DNA from: Bacteroidota bacterium | Lineage (GTDB): Bacteria > Bacteroidota > Bacteroidia > Chitinophagales > Chitinophagaceae | DNA length: 64,000 bases | Assembly (NCBI GenBank): GCA_030706735.1 | Contig: JAUZNZ010000002.1 | Coordinates: forward strand, 1-64,000 | Reading direction: 5' to 3' | Part shown: one piece after another, positions 59,701-63,458 of the stretch | How the letters are laid out: the number at the start of each line of letters is the position of its first letter | Numbering within the stretch: position 1 is the stretch's first letter | The notes under the pieces: generated by a model | What the model was told of the DNA's origin: nothing | What the model saw: only the letters and a program-made list of their open reading frames with translations | Databases searched by the model: none | Made by a program: the position numbers and the translations under genes

Positions 59701-61125
59701 TCAATACCTGGTCAGTTCCGGCTGCACCTCGTCGATATAGGAAAGGATGCCCCCTTTCAGGTTGTATAGGTTCGTGAAACCGAATTTCTCCTCCAGCTCC
59801 CGGATCGCTTTGGCACTCCGTCCGCCTACTTTGCAATGCACCACGACCTTGCGGTCCCGGTCGATCCTTTCGCTTTGAGCGGCTATGGTAGCCAGAGGGA
59901 TCAATTCCCCCCCGATATTGACGATGTCGAATTCATGCGGTTCCCTGACATCGACCAATTGGAATTTTTCACCGAGTACCTGCCAATTATACAATTCCCT
60001 GGCCGTGATCTCCTTAATGGGCGACGCCTCAACGGCACGCATCCCGCAGAATTGTTCGTAGTCGATGAGTTCGGTGATAGTCGGGTTCCTGCCATTGATC
60101 GGATTGTCTTCCCTTGCCTTGATCGTGAAGGTGCGGCTTTCGAAATTCAGGGCGTCAAAAATAAAGAAGCGTCCCGAGAGCGTTTCGCCTACGCCCGTGA
60201 TAACCTTTATGACCTCCAGTGCCTGCAGGCTGCCGATGATCCCCGGGAGGACGCCCAATACGCCGCCTTCCGCGCAGCTCGGCACCAGACCCGGAGGAGG
60301 CGGGGTGGGATAGAGGTCACGGTAGTTCGGCCCGGCCTGGCCATTCTTGTCCCGATAGTTGAACACGGATACCTGCCCTTCAAATTGGAAGATAGACGCA
60401 TAAACATTTGTCTTTCCAAGCAGAACGGAGGCGTCGTTGACCAGGTATCGCGTGGGGAAATTGTCGGTCCCGTCCGCAATCACATCATAGTCGCGCAGGA
60501 TATCCAGGGCATTCTGCGAATTGAGATGGGTGTTGTAGATGTTGAGGTGAATATGGGGATTGAGTGATTGAAGCCTTCTGCGTGCGGCCTCGACCTTGGG
60601 TTTGCCGATCTCTTCCACACCAAAGATAACCTGGCGCTGGAGATTGCTGTCATCGACGACGTCAAAATCGACGATGCCGAGAGTGCCCACCCCGGCGGCT
60701 GCGAGATACAGGAGAACCGGACTGCCCAGCCCGCCCGAACCGATCACCAGTACTTTGGCTGCCTTGAGTTTTTCCTGAGATTCCATCCCGAATTCAGGGA
60801 TAATGATATGACGGTTGTACCGCGCCAACTCTTCCTTCGTGAAGACGGATCCCGAGCCGCCCGCAATGGCCGGGACAATGCTGATCACCGTATCCTCCTT
60901 CACGGCTGTCTGGTCCTGCTGCAGGTTGCGGATATCGTCATTGCCCACAAAAATATTGACAAAGGAACGGATGTTGCCGCCTTCGTCGAGCAAGTGCTTT
61001 TTCAGGTCGGGAAAGTTGAGGGTCAGCTCCTGTACGGTATCCTTGATCGTGCCGGCCTTGACCTGCAGCCTGGCCGTATTGTTGGTGAATTTCCTTAAAG
61101 GTGTTGGAATGATGACGGTTGCCAT
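59701..61125 (-). CDS. fusion of CysO/ThiS-like sulfur carrier, MoeZ-type E1 and rhodanese
   Basis: The 474-residue protein has three parts. Residues 1-90 are a ubiquitin-fold sulfur carrier ending ISIVPAIAGG, the same end as the CysO/MoaD carriers; Gly89-Gly90 is here internal. Residues ~95-360 are an E1-type adenylyltransferase (ATP loop GSGGLGSP at 129-136, GTDNFPTRYLVND at 219-231, catalytic Cys284 in VPSCAEGGVLG). The CxxC zinc pairs of E. coli MoeB are absent, as in MoeZ. Residues ~375-474 are a rhodanese with Cys431 (HCKVGGRS). It would activate the carrier and place sulfur on it. It is the third gene of the cysM operon, 12 bases after the JAMM gene. Confidence 0.92.
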   Translation of the reverse strand: MATVIIPTPLRKFTNNTARLQVKAGTIKDTVQELTLNFPDLKKHLLDEGGNIRSFVNIFVGNDDIRNLQQDQTAVKEDTVISIVPAIAGGSGSVFTKEELARYNRHIIIPEFGMESQEKLKAAKVLVIGSGGLGSPVLLYLAAAGVGTLGIVDFDVVDDSNLQRQVIFGVEEIGKPKVEAARRRLQSLNPHIHLNIYNTHLNSQNALDILRDYDVIADGTDNFPTRYLVNDASVLLGKTNVYASIFQFEGQVSVFNYRDKNGQAGPNYRDLYPTPPPPGLVPSCAEGGVLGVLPGIIGSLQALEVIKVITGVGETLSGRFFIFDALNFESRTFTIKAREDNPINGRNPTITELIDYEQFCGMRAVEASPIKEITARELYNWQVLGEKFQLVDVREPHEFDIVNIGGELIPLATIAAQSERIDRDRKVVVHCKVGGRSAKAIRELEEKFGFTNLYNLKGGILSYIDEVQPELTRY

Positions 61126-61137
61126 GTTTATGTTGCT

Positions 61138-61575
61138 TTATGATGAATAGGTTGATTGGTAATCGATGATCTTTTCCTCTTCAAATTGTTGGTCCTCATT
61201 CAGCAGCCACGAACGGAACGTAATCACTTCTTTGTTCATTACGGAAATGATCAGGTAAGAGAAATAGGGCTGCGCGGCGACGCGGTCGTGTTCGGAAGGA
61301 ATTGCCGGATGGTTCGGATGCGAATGGTAGATGCCCAGCAAGGCCCAATCATGGTCCAGCGCATGCTGCTCGGCGATCAGGTAATCTGAAGGCGCGATCT
61401 CGAAGCGACGTGTCTTGTCTCCCTGCTTTGAGTTGTCTACCACGAGGATATCGATGATGTAGCGCGTCCCATCCGATTCCTCCTTGCCAAATAAAAATCC
61501 GCAGCATTCGTCCGGAAAACTTCCGACGGCGTCTTCGATCAACAGGTGCCTGATACTGGGTTCGATGATTAGCAT
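61138..61575 (-). CDS. JAMM/Mov34 metalloprotease (Mec-like)
   Basis: The 145-residue protein has the JAMM zinc site: Glu23 (PDECCGFLFG), His84 and His86 (YHSHPNHPAIPS), Ser94 and Asp97. In M. tuberculosis the homolog Mec removes cysteine from the C-terminus of the CysO carrier after CysM has attached it. The ATG at 61575 lies one base after the cysM stop; an in-frame upstream start at 61617 would overlap cysM. It may also cut the carrier free from the downstream fusion, as JAMM proteases do for carriers with extra residues after Gly-Gly. Confidence 0.9.
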   Translation of the reverse strand: MLIIEPSIRHLLIEDAVGSFPDECCGFLFGKEESDGTRYIIDILVVDNSKQGDKTRRFEIAPSDYLIAEQHALDHDWALLGIYHSHPNHPAIPSEHDRVAAQPYFSYLIISVMNKEVITFRSWLLNEDQQFEEEKIIDYQSTYSS

Positions 61576-61576
61576 A

Positions 61577-62515
61577 TTATAATACTTTTTGGATGACCTC
61601 GCCGTATTTGTCCGCATTGTCCGGAAAGACCGTTACAACAATGCCGCTCTCTAATTGTTCGCCGACCTTTATGGCCGCTGCCAGATTGGCGGCCGAAGAG
61701 GGGCTTAACAAAAGCCCTTCATGGCGATGAGCGGCCCGCATCATTTCATAGGCTTCCTCCGTGCTCACTTCATAGTTGGCGTCTGCAAGCGTAGGGTCGT
61801 AGATCCTGGGTACAATGGCCGTTTCCATATGTTTCCATCCTTCCAGCCCGTGCAAGGCGGAATCGGGCTGTAACGAGATCAGCCGGATGGAGGGATTCAG
61901 TTCACGAAGCCGCCTGCCCGTACCGGTAAAAGTTCCCGTCGTGCCCAGCCCGGCTACGAAATGAGTGATCCCGGGAAGGGCGGAAAAGATCTCGGGAGCC
62001 GTGGTATGATAATGGGCCTTCCAGTTATTCGGATTCTTATACTGATCGGCATAGAAGTATGCGGATGGGTTTTCCAGGGCCATGGCTTTTGCCGTCTGCT
62101 GCGCCCCATCCGTGCCCTCGAACCGCGAAGTAAGAATGAGGCGCACCCCCAGGGATTGCAGGATGTCCTTGCGCTCCCGGGAAGCGTTCTCCGGCAGGCA
62201 AAGCGCCACCGGGATATTCAGTAAACGGGCAATATGCGCATAGGCGATCCCGGTATTGCCGCTGGTCGCATCCAGTAGTGTGGTTTGCCGGTTGAGCTCG
62301 CCGCTTTCAATCGCTTTGCGGATGATCTGGTAGGCAGCACGGGCTTTCACGCTGCCGGACAGCTGCATCCATTCTTTTTTGGCAAACAGCTGCACGTTCC
62401 TCCTTTGGAACAAGTGCGTGACCGCATGCAAGGGCGTATGCCCGATCCGCTTTTCGAGGGCCTGGACGGCAGGAAGAAGGTCTGTATCTATTCGATGATG
62501 AACGGTCGTTTCCAT
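61577..62515 (-). CDS. cysM: cysteine synthase, CysM-like (thiocarboxylate-dependent type)
   Basis: The 312-residue PLP enzyme has Lys57 in LSGSVKARAA, TSGNTG at 84-89, and the ITHFVAGLGTTGTFTGTGR segment, given as THFVAGLGTTGTFTGTG near 178. That segment resembles M. tuberculosis CysM, which uses O-phosphoserine and a CysO thiocarboxylate. It joins the sulfur donor to a serine derivative. The ATG at 62515 (METTV) is used; the frame upstream crosses the leader terminator. It is first in the operon with the JAMM and fusion genes, behind a cysteine-codon leader. True substrate preference is inferred from context. Confidence 0.9.
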   Translation of the reverse strand: METTVHHRIDTDLLPAVQALEKRIGHTPLHAVTHLFQRRNVQLFAKKEWMQLSGSVKARAAYQIIRKAIESGELNRQTTLLDATSGNTGIAYAHIARLLNIPVALCLPENASRERKDILQSLGVRLILTSRFEGTDGAQQTAKAMALENPSAYFYADQYKNPNNWKAHYHTTAPEIFSALPGITHFVAGLGTTGTFTGTGRRLRELNPSIRLISLQPDSALHGLEGWKHMETAIVPRIYDPTLADANYEVSTEEAYEMMRAAHRHEGLLLSPSSAANLAAAIKVGEQLESGIVVTVFPDNADKYGEVIQKVL

Positions 62516-62535
62516 GATGTCGATTTGTGTCTGAA

Positions 62536-62549
62536 CCGGCCATGGCCGG
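62536..62549. other. 14-base perfect palindrome before cysM
   Basis: CCGGCCATGGCCGG lies between the leader terminator and the cysM ATG, 20 bases upstream of the latter. In RNA it could form a 5-bp hairpin with a four-base loop. It may be an operator or RNA stabiliser, or chance. Confidence 0.35.
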
Positions 62550-62550
62550 A

Positions 62551-62582
62551 AAATAAAAAAGCCCCACATCAGGTGGAGCTTC
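62551..62582 (-). terminator. attenuator terminator in the cysM leader
   Basis: On the minus strand GCTCCAC (62579-62573), loop CTGAT and GTGGGGC (62567-62561) form a stem with one G-T pair, extended by flanking A-T pairs, and are followed by a T-rich tract. It lies 30 bases after the leader stop codon and 35 bases before cysM. Its 5' arm CTCCACC is complementary to GGTGGAG inside the leader ORF (62633-62627). Confidence 0.88.
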
Positions 62583-62611
62583 TTAATATTGTTTGTTTAC
62601 AGTTAATCAGC

Positions 62612-62698
62612 CTATAAGAGGTCATCCTCCACCAAAATAACCATGCCTTGCCGACAACAGCAACAACAACAAGTACTATTTGAGAATGCCTGGTTCAT
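62612..62698 (-). CDS. cysteine-rich leader peptide for cysM attenuation
   Basis: An ATG-initiated ORF of 28 codons plus TAG encodes M N Q A F S N S T, then six consecutive cysteines (codons 10-15, 62671-62654: TGT TGT TGT TGC TGT TGT), then 13 more residues ending in Leu-Leu. Six adjacent Cys codons in so short an ORF before a cysteine synthase are the mark of a leader peptide. The 3' part of the ORF (62633-62627, GGTGGAG) can pair with the 5' arm of the terminator at 62578-62572. A competing small hairpin GAGG-ATGA-CCTC (62629-62618) lies at the ORF end. Low charged tRNA-Cys would stall the ribosome upstream of the pairing segment and allow read-through into cysM. The peptide itself probably has no separate role. 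Confidence 0.88.
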   Translation of the reverse strand: MNQAFSNSTCCCCCCRQGMVILVEDDLL

Positions 62699-62753
62699 CT
62701 GGTTTGAATGACAACTGTACAGCAAATGTAAGATAATAGTTTTATATTTCCTA

Positions 62754-62761
62754 CAAAATTA
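62754..62761 (-). promoter_or_regulatory. -7 box of the cysM leader promoter
   Basis: TAATTTTG on the minus strand matches TAnnTTTG. A TTG at 62787-62785 is 23 bases away, slightly far for the -33 box. The box overlaps the region just before the divergent rpiA ATG, and predicts a leader about 50 bases before the leader ORF. Confidence 0.55.
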
Positions 62762-62768
62762 GGGGCCA

Positions 62769-63458
62769 ATGGAGCAGCCGGTGGCAAACATTAAGAAAAT
62801 AGCCGCAGACAAGGCCATGAGCCATATTCAGGATGGCATGATCCTGGGCCTCGGGACCGGATCCACAGCCTACTGGGCCATTCGCGGGGTGGGAGAACTG
62901 GTGAAACAGGGCCTGCAGGTGCGGGCCGTTGCGACTTCCCTGCAGTCGGAAGGATTGGCAAGGGAAATGAATATCCCGATCGTATCTTTTTCCGATATCG
63001 ATCATATCGATCTGACGATCGACGGCGCGGACGAAGTAGATAAGGAATTGAACCTGATCAAGGGAGGCGGGGGCGCCCTGCTTCGGGAAAAGATAGTCGC
63101 TGCCGCCACGCACACCTATATTATCATAGTGGACGAGACCAAACTGGTCGACTGCCTCGGGAAATTCCCCCTGCCCGTGGAAGTTGTTCCGTTCGGTTGG
63201 GAAATGACGCAGCGTAAACTGATCTCCCTGGGTTGTACTGCCCGTCGGCGCATGGCAGAAGACAACAGCATCTTTCTGACGGATAATAACCACTATATCA
63301 TTGACTGCTTCTTCGGCAGGATTCCCGATCCCGGAAGTCTCGACGAGGCAGTGAATAACATTATCGGCGTGATGGACAACGGTCTCTTTGTCAATATGAC
63401 CGATTTCGTCATCGCCGGATTTTCCGACGGCAGCACGAAAGTGATAAAGAAAGGCTAG
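62769..63458 (+). CDS. rpiA: ribose-5-phosphate isomerase A
   Basis: The 229-residue enzyme has the RpiA motifs: GLGTGSTAYWAI near residue 27, TSLQSE near 58, DGADEVDKELNLIKGGGGALLREK, given as DGADEVD near 85 and KGGGGALLREK near 98, and a Lys in DETKLVDCLG near 120. It interconverts ribose 5-phosphate and ribulose 5-phosphate. It diverges from the cysM leader. The partial gene at 63469 follows 10 bases later. Confidence 0.96.
   Translation: MEQPVANIKKIAADKAMSHIQDGMILGLGTGSTAYWAIRGVGELVKQGLQVRAVATSLQSEGLAREMNIPIVSFSDIDHIDLTIDGADEVDKELNLIKGGGGALLREKIVAAATHTYIIIVDETKLVDCLGKFPLPVEVVPFGWEMTQRKLISLGCTARRRMAEDNSIFLTDNNHYIIDCFFGRIPDPGSLDEAVNNIIGVMDNGLFVNMTDFVIAGFSDGSTKVIKKG

Follow-up and report, generated by a model that had tools for sequence, protein, structure and literature searches.

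Is the short ORF with six consecutive Cys codons that precedes a cysM-like gene in a Bacteroidota bacterium the leader of a cysteine attenuator? The ORF lies near the end of the window, by which we mean the whole stretch of 64,000 nucleotides analysed (contig JAUZNZ010000002.1, positions 1 to 64,000). In the trp, his and leu attenuators, a leader ORF carries a run of codons for the amino acid made by the operon, and an antiterminator and an intrinsic terminator are mutually exclusive. To our knowledge, little is known about the regulation of cysteine synthesis in Bacteroidota. A previous reading of this DNA, made from the sequence only, proposed a trp/his/leu-type layout for this locus. The work described here suggests that the cysM leader is probably an attenuator of this known kind, in a phylum where we found none described, and part of a regulon.

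According to the passages on leader peptides in an article of 2010, these had been known in Proteobacteria and Actinobacteria, and Firmicutes were the new addition (Naville & Gautheret, PMC2965389). Among the matches listed in the open-licence literature, we found none that describes a cysteine attenuator from Bacteroidota. In the passages matched, leader peptides of this phylum receive general mentions only (PMC9723704, PMC7366714); the first of these papers, on F. psychrophilum, mentions leader-peptide attenuation before amino-acid operons, and its cysteine passage concerns a protease.

The leader region and its operon

The features of the locus are listed below, with their basis in brackets.

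62723..62730, minus strand: TAnnTTTG box (TACATTTG), 24 nt 5' of the leader ATG (sequence)
62612..62698, minus strand: leader ORF of 28 codons, 28-aa peptide MNQAFSNSTCCCCCCRQGMVILVEDDLL (sequence and Cys-run ORFs in relatives)
62654..62671, minus strand: six adjacent Cys codons, TGT TGT TGT TGC TGT TGT (sequence and amino-acid-run control)
62620..62642, minus strand: hairpin P1, GGTTAT-N3-GGTGG-N3-ATGACC, whose loop holds the antiterminator core (recurrence in the sequence group and fold prediction)
62627..62633, minus strand: antiterminator segment (segment 2), GGTGGAG (sequence and pairing tests)
62572..62578, minus strand: terminator 5' arm (segment 3), CTCCACC, complementary to segment 2 (sequence and pairing test)
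62558..62582, minus strand: intrinsic terminator hairpin, GAAGCTCCACC-TGAT-GTGGGGCTTT (predicted -13.5 kcal/mol)
62555..62560, minus strand: terminator U-tract (sequence)
61577..62515, minus strand: cysM-like PLP-dependent enzyme (PALP) (domain and NCBIfam searches)
61138..61575, minus strand: Prok-JAB (JAMM) peptidase (domain search)
59701..61125, minus strand: ThiS-ThiF-rhodanese fusion, sulfur carrier and MoeB/MoeZ-like activator (domain and NCBIfam searches)
62769-63458, plus strand: rpiA, divergent neighbour (ORF list and domain search)

The leader ORF runs from an ATG at 62698-62696 to a TAG at 62614-62612. The sequence-only reading had described this 28-codon ORF with its six Cys codons and the complementarity of GGTGGAG to the CTCCACC arm of the terminator before cysM, and both were confirmed with the same coordinates. 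We propose the six-codon run as the site at which a ribosome would stall. The TAnnTTTG box, which we take to be the Bacteroidota -7 promoter consensus, recurs in two sequence groups: 18 of their 39 loci have it no more than 60 nt before the leader start codon, when shuffling predicts 1.4. As rpiA is divergent, the terminator cannot belong to the end of a gene upstream and can act only on transcripts begun in the leader region. Between the terminator and cysM there is also a perfect 14-bp palindrome, CCGGCCATGGCCGG (62536-62549), with no T-run after it. Searches of 62300-62900 with Rfam riboswitch, T-box and leader families gave no match at the gathering score, the best scores being GcvB (24 bits, gathering score 42) and Trp_leader (18.7, gathering score 41).

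The cysM ORF as listed by the ORF caller begins at 62569, inside the terminator, which makes the ATG at 62515 a likelier start. The best NCBIfam models for the PALP protein are cysteine synthases (CysM and CysK), with scores below their cut-offs, and "cysM" is therefore a family-level name. Downstream, the JAB peptidase is presumably Mec+-like, judging from its context, and by its gene content the cysM - JAB - ThiS/ThiF/rhodanese operon resembles a sulfur-carrier cysteine pathway. We liken it to the CysO-CysM-Mec+-MoeZ pathway of Mycobacterium tuberculosis. As in that pathway, a PALP enzyme adjoins a JAB peptidase and ThiS, ThiF and rhodanese domains; unlike in M. tuberculosis, the carrier, activating and rhodanese domains are fused here in one protein.

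Conservation of the Cys run upstream of cysM

The cysM protein was scanned against GTDB contigs, which gave 67 loci, 41 of them Bacteroidota-titled and 39 of these with upstream DNA. The sequence-only reading had suggested looking for Cys runs upstream of cysM in other Bacteroidota, and a run or tight cluster was indeed present within about 320 nt in 32 of the 39. It is missing within this distance from seven loci (L014, L017, L027, L029, L032, L033 and L035), L027 having a run only at -403, and the run of L015 has no in-frame ATG. In loci with other titles there is no run of at least four except a CCCC at -365 in L057; L046, L055 and L060 have CCC. Within the family of the window, nine close cysM loci have upstream DNA (among them the own locus and three identical to loci of the GTDB scan), and the leader was found at all nine. 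Among 296 genomes of the phylum, 22 have a close cysM (at our own cut-off of 1e-85), and 15 of 20 additional phylum loci carry a Cys-rich leader, counting L258, which has no ATG. Judging from these sequences, the leader recurs widely upstream of cysM in the phylum Bacteroidota. Family f23 (L258, L259, L261 and L262) has cysM leaders of another type, with no convincing terminator; in the last three the Cys run is followed by a Ser codon and the stop, and in L262 an inverted repeat, GTTACCGG/CCGGTAAC, lies 3' of the leader stop.

Could the run have arisen by chance beside an ordinary terminator? TGY runs do occur elsewhere in the genome of the window, where we read every place among 45 matches to four consecutive TGY codons; but only two of these places, the cysM leader itself and one before cysH, are free of overlap with an ORF of at least 100 aa on either strand. 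For the amino-acid-run control, ATG ORFs no longer than 80 codons were taken from 94 cysM-type upstream regions, whatever their title; three family loci among these are duplicates. Runs of at least four identical residues were formed by Cys in 45 regions, Leu in 4, and Gln, Ala and Arg in one each, compared with 0 for Cys and 7 for Gln on the antisense strand of the same regions. By source, the 45 comprise 29 of 40 regions that are Bacteroidota-titled or from the window, 6 of 8 from the family, 9 of 20 from the phylum and 1 of 26 with other titles (L057). This control, the conservation and the covariation described below contradict a chance origin, which we consider to have virtually no probability. 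The cysK-like paralogues were ruled out as additional leader targets, as a run of at least four Cys was found upstream of none of the 20; one has a CCC within a 76-aa ORF.

Covariation of the leader segment and the terminator arm

A hairpin followed by a T-run lies between the leader ORF and cysM in 32 of 33 loci, namely the 32 Bacteroidota-titled loci with a Cys run or cluster and the window; the exception is L041. A Cys run with no terminator detected occurs in L041, L259 and L261. Counted from the Cys run, the pairing segment is mostly located at about +8 to +32. It is complementary to the 5' arm of the terminator, and the sequences of the two are lineage-specific: GGTGGAG/CTCCACC, GTGGAAAGG/CCTTTCCAC, GGCGGA/TCCGCC, GTGCGG/CCGCAC, TTCCGGAAAGG/CCTTTCCGGAA and GAAGGGC/GCCCTTC. 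Within family f13, GGGGCAAC/GTTGCCCC contrasts with GGTAGC/GTTACC (pairs assigned partly by eye).

Covariation was measured by comparing the pairing of each leader with its own arm and with permuted arms, shared ancestry being left uncorrected. Own arms paired better than permuted arms in a set of 32 loci (p = 5e-5) and in a set of 46 loci (-662.7 versus -543.7 ± 16.6, p ≤ 5e-5), from which L015 and L020 (no ATG in the 330-nt stretch, both included in the terminator count) and the duplicates L147, L148 and L152 were left out. Within the 46, the same holds for the 16 loci of the CCTTTCC-type group (p ≤ 5e-5) and for eight loci that belong to neither group (p = 0.036), but not for the window's group of 22 loci, in which leader and arm are so nearly invariant that own arms have no advantage over permuted ones (p = 0.96). 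As the permutation ignores ancestry, the result of the CCTTTCC-type group is the cleanest. Four loci had been dropped, L046, L055 and L057 for their non-Bacteroidota titles and L262 for its doubtful terminator and pairing. Removal of L057 reduced the window's group from 23 loci (p = 0.64) to 22, and removal of the other three changed p for the loci outside the two groups from 2e-4 (11 loci) to 0.036. The sequence comparisons thus show that the leader segment and the terminator arm covary between lineages; of the covariation that the sequence-only reading had proposed to look for, this part was found, and the part within the window's group was not.

The trp/his/leu-type layout is borne out by these results: adjacent Cys codons in a short ORF, a terminator before the first gene, and an arm-complementary segment that covaries across 46 loci and is uninformative in the window's group. 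The locus has in common with these attenuators, as the relevant passages of PMC2965389 present them, a codon-run leader ORF and the opposition of antiterminator and terminator; it differs from them in that the amino acid is cysteine, the phylum is another one, and there is no general 1:2 protector hairpin among the loci analysed. In family f13 (L268-L272), a stem of about 15 bp, seen by eye, has arms that flank the Cys run and segment 2, and is possibly a true protector hairpin.

What is conserved beyond the Cys codons is informative about the nature of the leader. In the window's group, the GGTGG core occupies all three frames among the 21 loci in which it was found (frame 2, 13 loci; frame 0, six loci, of which L149 is ambiguous; frame 1, two loci), and across loci the leader stop lies 3 to 60 nt past the Cys run (39 nt in the window). 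The presence of the core in three frames and the variable end of the ORF indicate that what is kept is not the peptide after the run but the RNA segment, together with its spacing from the Cys codons; in the sequences compared, spacing from the Cys codons is a steadier feature than spacing to the stop codon. The same two properties, and the lineage-specific variation of the residues that flank the run, argue against a leader ORF that encodes a functional Cys-rich small protein involved in metal or redox binding. The conserved Cys run and the similar peptides of close relatives would suit such a protein, which we nevertheless regard as very improbable.

Proposed mechanism and predicted folds

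When cysteinyl-tRNA is scarce, a ribosome would stall at the Cys codons, its front edge not quite reaching segment 2; GGTGGAG would then be able to pair with the CTCCACC arm, the terminator would not form, and the operon would be transcribed. When cysteine is plentiful, the ribosome would cross segment 2 while the terminator is being synthesized, the hairpin would form, and transcription would end. The ORF, the Cys run, the terminator, the conserved spacing and the pairing that covaries between lineages are present in the sequences; from them we infer translation of the leader ORF, stalling and cysteine-responsive read-through. The attenuator is real by these sequence tests, and its control by cysteine is the most likely one. 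It is, in our opinion, highly likely that the cysM - JAB - ThiS/ThiF/rhodanese operon is under the control of a ribosome-mediated transcription attenuator by which charged tRNA-Cys is sensed. Such a leader would very probably let these bacteria switch on their cysteine-making genes when cysteine is low.

The stalled state was modelled as RNA free from +12 after the Cys run, which corresponds to a ribosome on the last Cys codon. At least five leader-arm pairs are predicted in 46 of 50 loci, the 50 including four doubtful ones (L046, L055, L057 and L262), compared with 23.0 ± 3.5 loci when leaders are shuffled (maximum 32 in 100 shuffles). The four loci below this threshold are L013, L145, L150 and the window, whose predicted fold is P1 (62642-62620) with only 4 pairs to the terminator arm. 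The proposal of the sequence-only reading that stalling frees GGTGGAG for the antiterminator therefore agrees with the predicted folds of most loci and not with that of the window. With a ribosome at the stop codon the terminator forms in 50 of 50 predicted folds, which is no test since the loci were selected for having a terminator. That a ribosome at the stop codon would cover GGTGGAG, another element of that reading, roughly suits the window, where 12 nt separate the end of the segment from the stop, given the size of a ribosome footprint. Such masking is not general: it does not fit L268-L272, in which the stop is at +54 to +60 and the pairing segment at about +10 to +22.

P1 has no Cys codons in its stem or loop, and may either compete with the antiterminator or present GGTGG. 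The latter raises the possibility, which we hold tentatively as the less likely one, that stalling, in the window's group, results in a pseudoknot-like contact of the P1 loop GGTGG with CCACC in place of a plain antiterminator hairpin; this would still be cysteine attenuation, through another RNA switch. It is consistent with the occurrence of the P1 motif in 15 of the 22 loci of this group, with pairs mostly preserved through changes, with the position of P1, which starts near the expected downstream edge of a ribosome on the last Cys codon, and with the fold predicted for the window. On the other hand, the count of P1 covers this group only, in which the sequence is under constraint from the peptide too, pairing within a 5-nt loop is strained, and 46 of 50 loci have the plain antiterminator pairing in their predicted folds. 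We therefore retain the plain pairing of segment 2 with the terminator arm as the preferred reading.

Other Cys-rich leaders

The genome of the window contains a second Cys-rich leader, MNTLSAPILELSFSCCNTCCCC, before cysH and cysD (L095, 1430-1570), in which the Cys codons directly adjoin the stop and no terminator was seen. In the family, the best-scoring 30 loci were taken for each of three genes from the genomes with a match (cysH, 78 of 117; metY, 44 of 98; cysS, 95 of 98), the cysS query protein passing the NCBIfam cut-off for cysteine--tRNA ligase and the metY query protein that for OAH/OAS sulfhydrylase. Short ORFs with clustered Cys codons lie upstream in 18 (cysH), 16 (metY) and 14 (cysS) of these 30, and antisense clusters were found in 0, 1 and 0, respectively. 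A terminator-like structure follows the leader in only 1 of 18 cysH, 4 of 16 metY and 0 of 14 cysS loci, so another mechanism is needed for most of these leaders and is probable in these genomes. By extension, the cysM leader could work through Rho-dependent termination or cysM translation, the hairpin being incidental; the terminator in 32 of 33 cysM loci and the covariation of its arm with the leader speak against this, and we judge it improbable for cysM. A rut-like composition was not upheld as evidence for Rho: C/G after the leader is 0.24/0.11 (cysH), 0.23/0.10 (cysS) and 0.25/0.11 (metY), and in loci with no leader 0.20/0.15, 0.19/0.17 and 0.19/0.08, the metY loci being G-poor there too.

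In 60 family genomes we read 84 distinct runs of six TGY codons (three cysM sites already known and one site inside an ORF of the own genome not being counted), 68 of which are in ORFs of more than 150 aa. Seven of the other 16 are in an ATG short ORF, before cysM (one), cysH (two), metY (two), cysS (one) and a gene of unknown type (one). Five TGY codons followed by a stop were sought in 198 phylum genomes; 50 places were read among the matches listed, and ten of them are ATG short ORFs not inside an ORF of more than 150 aa. These precede cysS (L282, tested, and L312, by eye), cysH (L283, by eye), a sulfate ABC substrate-binding protein (L317, tested), PhyH-type dioxygenases (L296, tested, and L294, by eye) and TonB-receptor-type genes (L311, tested, and L309, weak), with no target named for L304 and L314. 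About half of these ten candidates, among the matches listed, are thus not before cysteine or sulfate genes; L209 is another Cys-run short ORF, before a gene of unknown type.

These leaders suggest a cysteine-attenuation regulon in Bacteroidota, which we consider likely, with poly-Cys leaders before cysM, cysH(D), metY, cysS and perhaps genes of sulfate uptake or other transport. It would comprise two architectures: an intrinsic terminator with an antiterminator at a nearly fixed distance from the Cys run (cysM), and Cys codons at or near the stop, mostly with no terminator, hence acting through Rho or translation (cysH, cysS, metY). The cysM version would extend beyond the window's class within the phylum. 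If this is true, a conserved cis-acting cysteine sensor is placed on a carrier-protein-type cysteine operon, the second form of leader ties sensing to genes of sulfate reduction, tRNA charging and OAH sulfhydrylase, and a ready regulon and simple reporters are at hand.

Cys codons in upstream ORFs have been described in other phyla. The passages on the uORFC-8-2 motif of Rhodobacterales present a prediction of uORF Cys codons followed by an intrinsic terminator before cysS (PMC8632094); the locus studied here shares this arrangement, but has six Cys codons where that motif has two, and is before cysM in Bacteroidota where that motif is before cysS in Alphaproteobacteria; the Cys codons of that motif are part of its first stem. 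The title of an article on mycobacterial polycysteine uORFs claims a cysteine response for them (Canestrari et al. 2020). The Actinobacterial cys/cbs leaders, as described in the passages of PMC1262725 that deal with them, carry their Cys run close to the stop codon and lack a conserved terminator hairpin. A Cys-codon run before cysteine or sulfur genes is common to the mycobacterial and Actinobacterial leaders and to those studied here; the cysM leader of the window departs from the Actinobacterial type by its stop 39 nt after the run and its terminator, and the cysH and cysS leaders are closer to that type than the cysM leader is (PMC1262725).

Two minor observations concern the leaders of the second type. 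Eight of the 16 metY leaders (L358-L387) terminate in Cys-Cys-Met-Pro-stop, a hint that Met or Pro may matter too. In several cysH promoters (L114-L143), a palindrome-like motif seen by eye, GTCYAYC-N5-GRTRGAC, lies near the presumed transcription start and is possibly a candidate repressor site.
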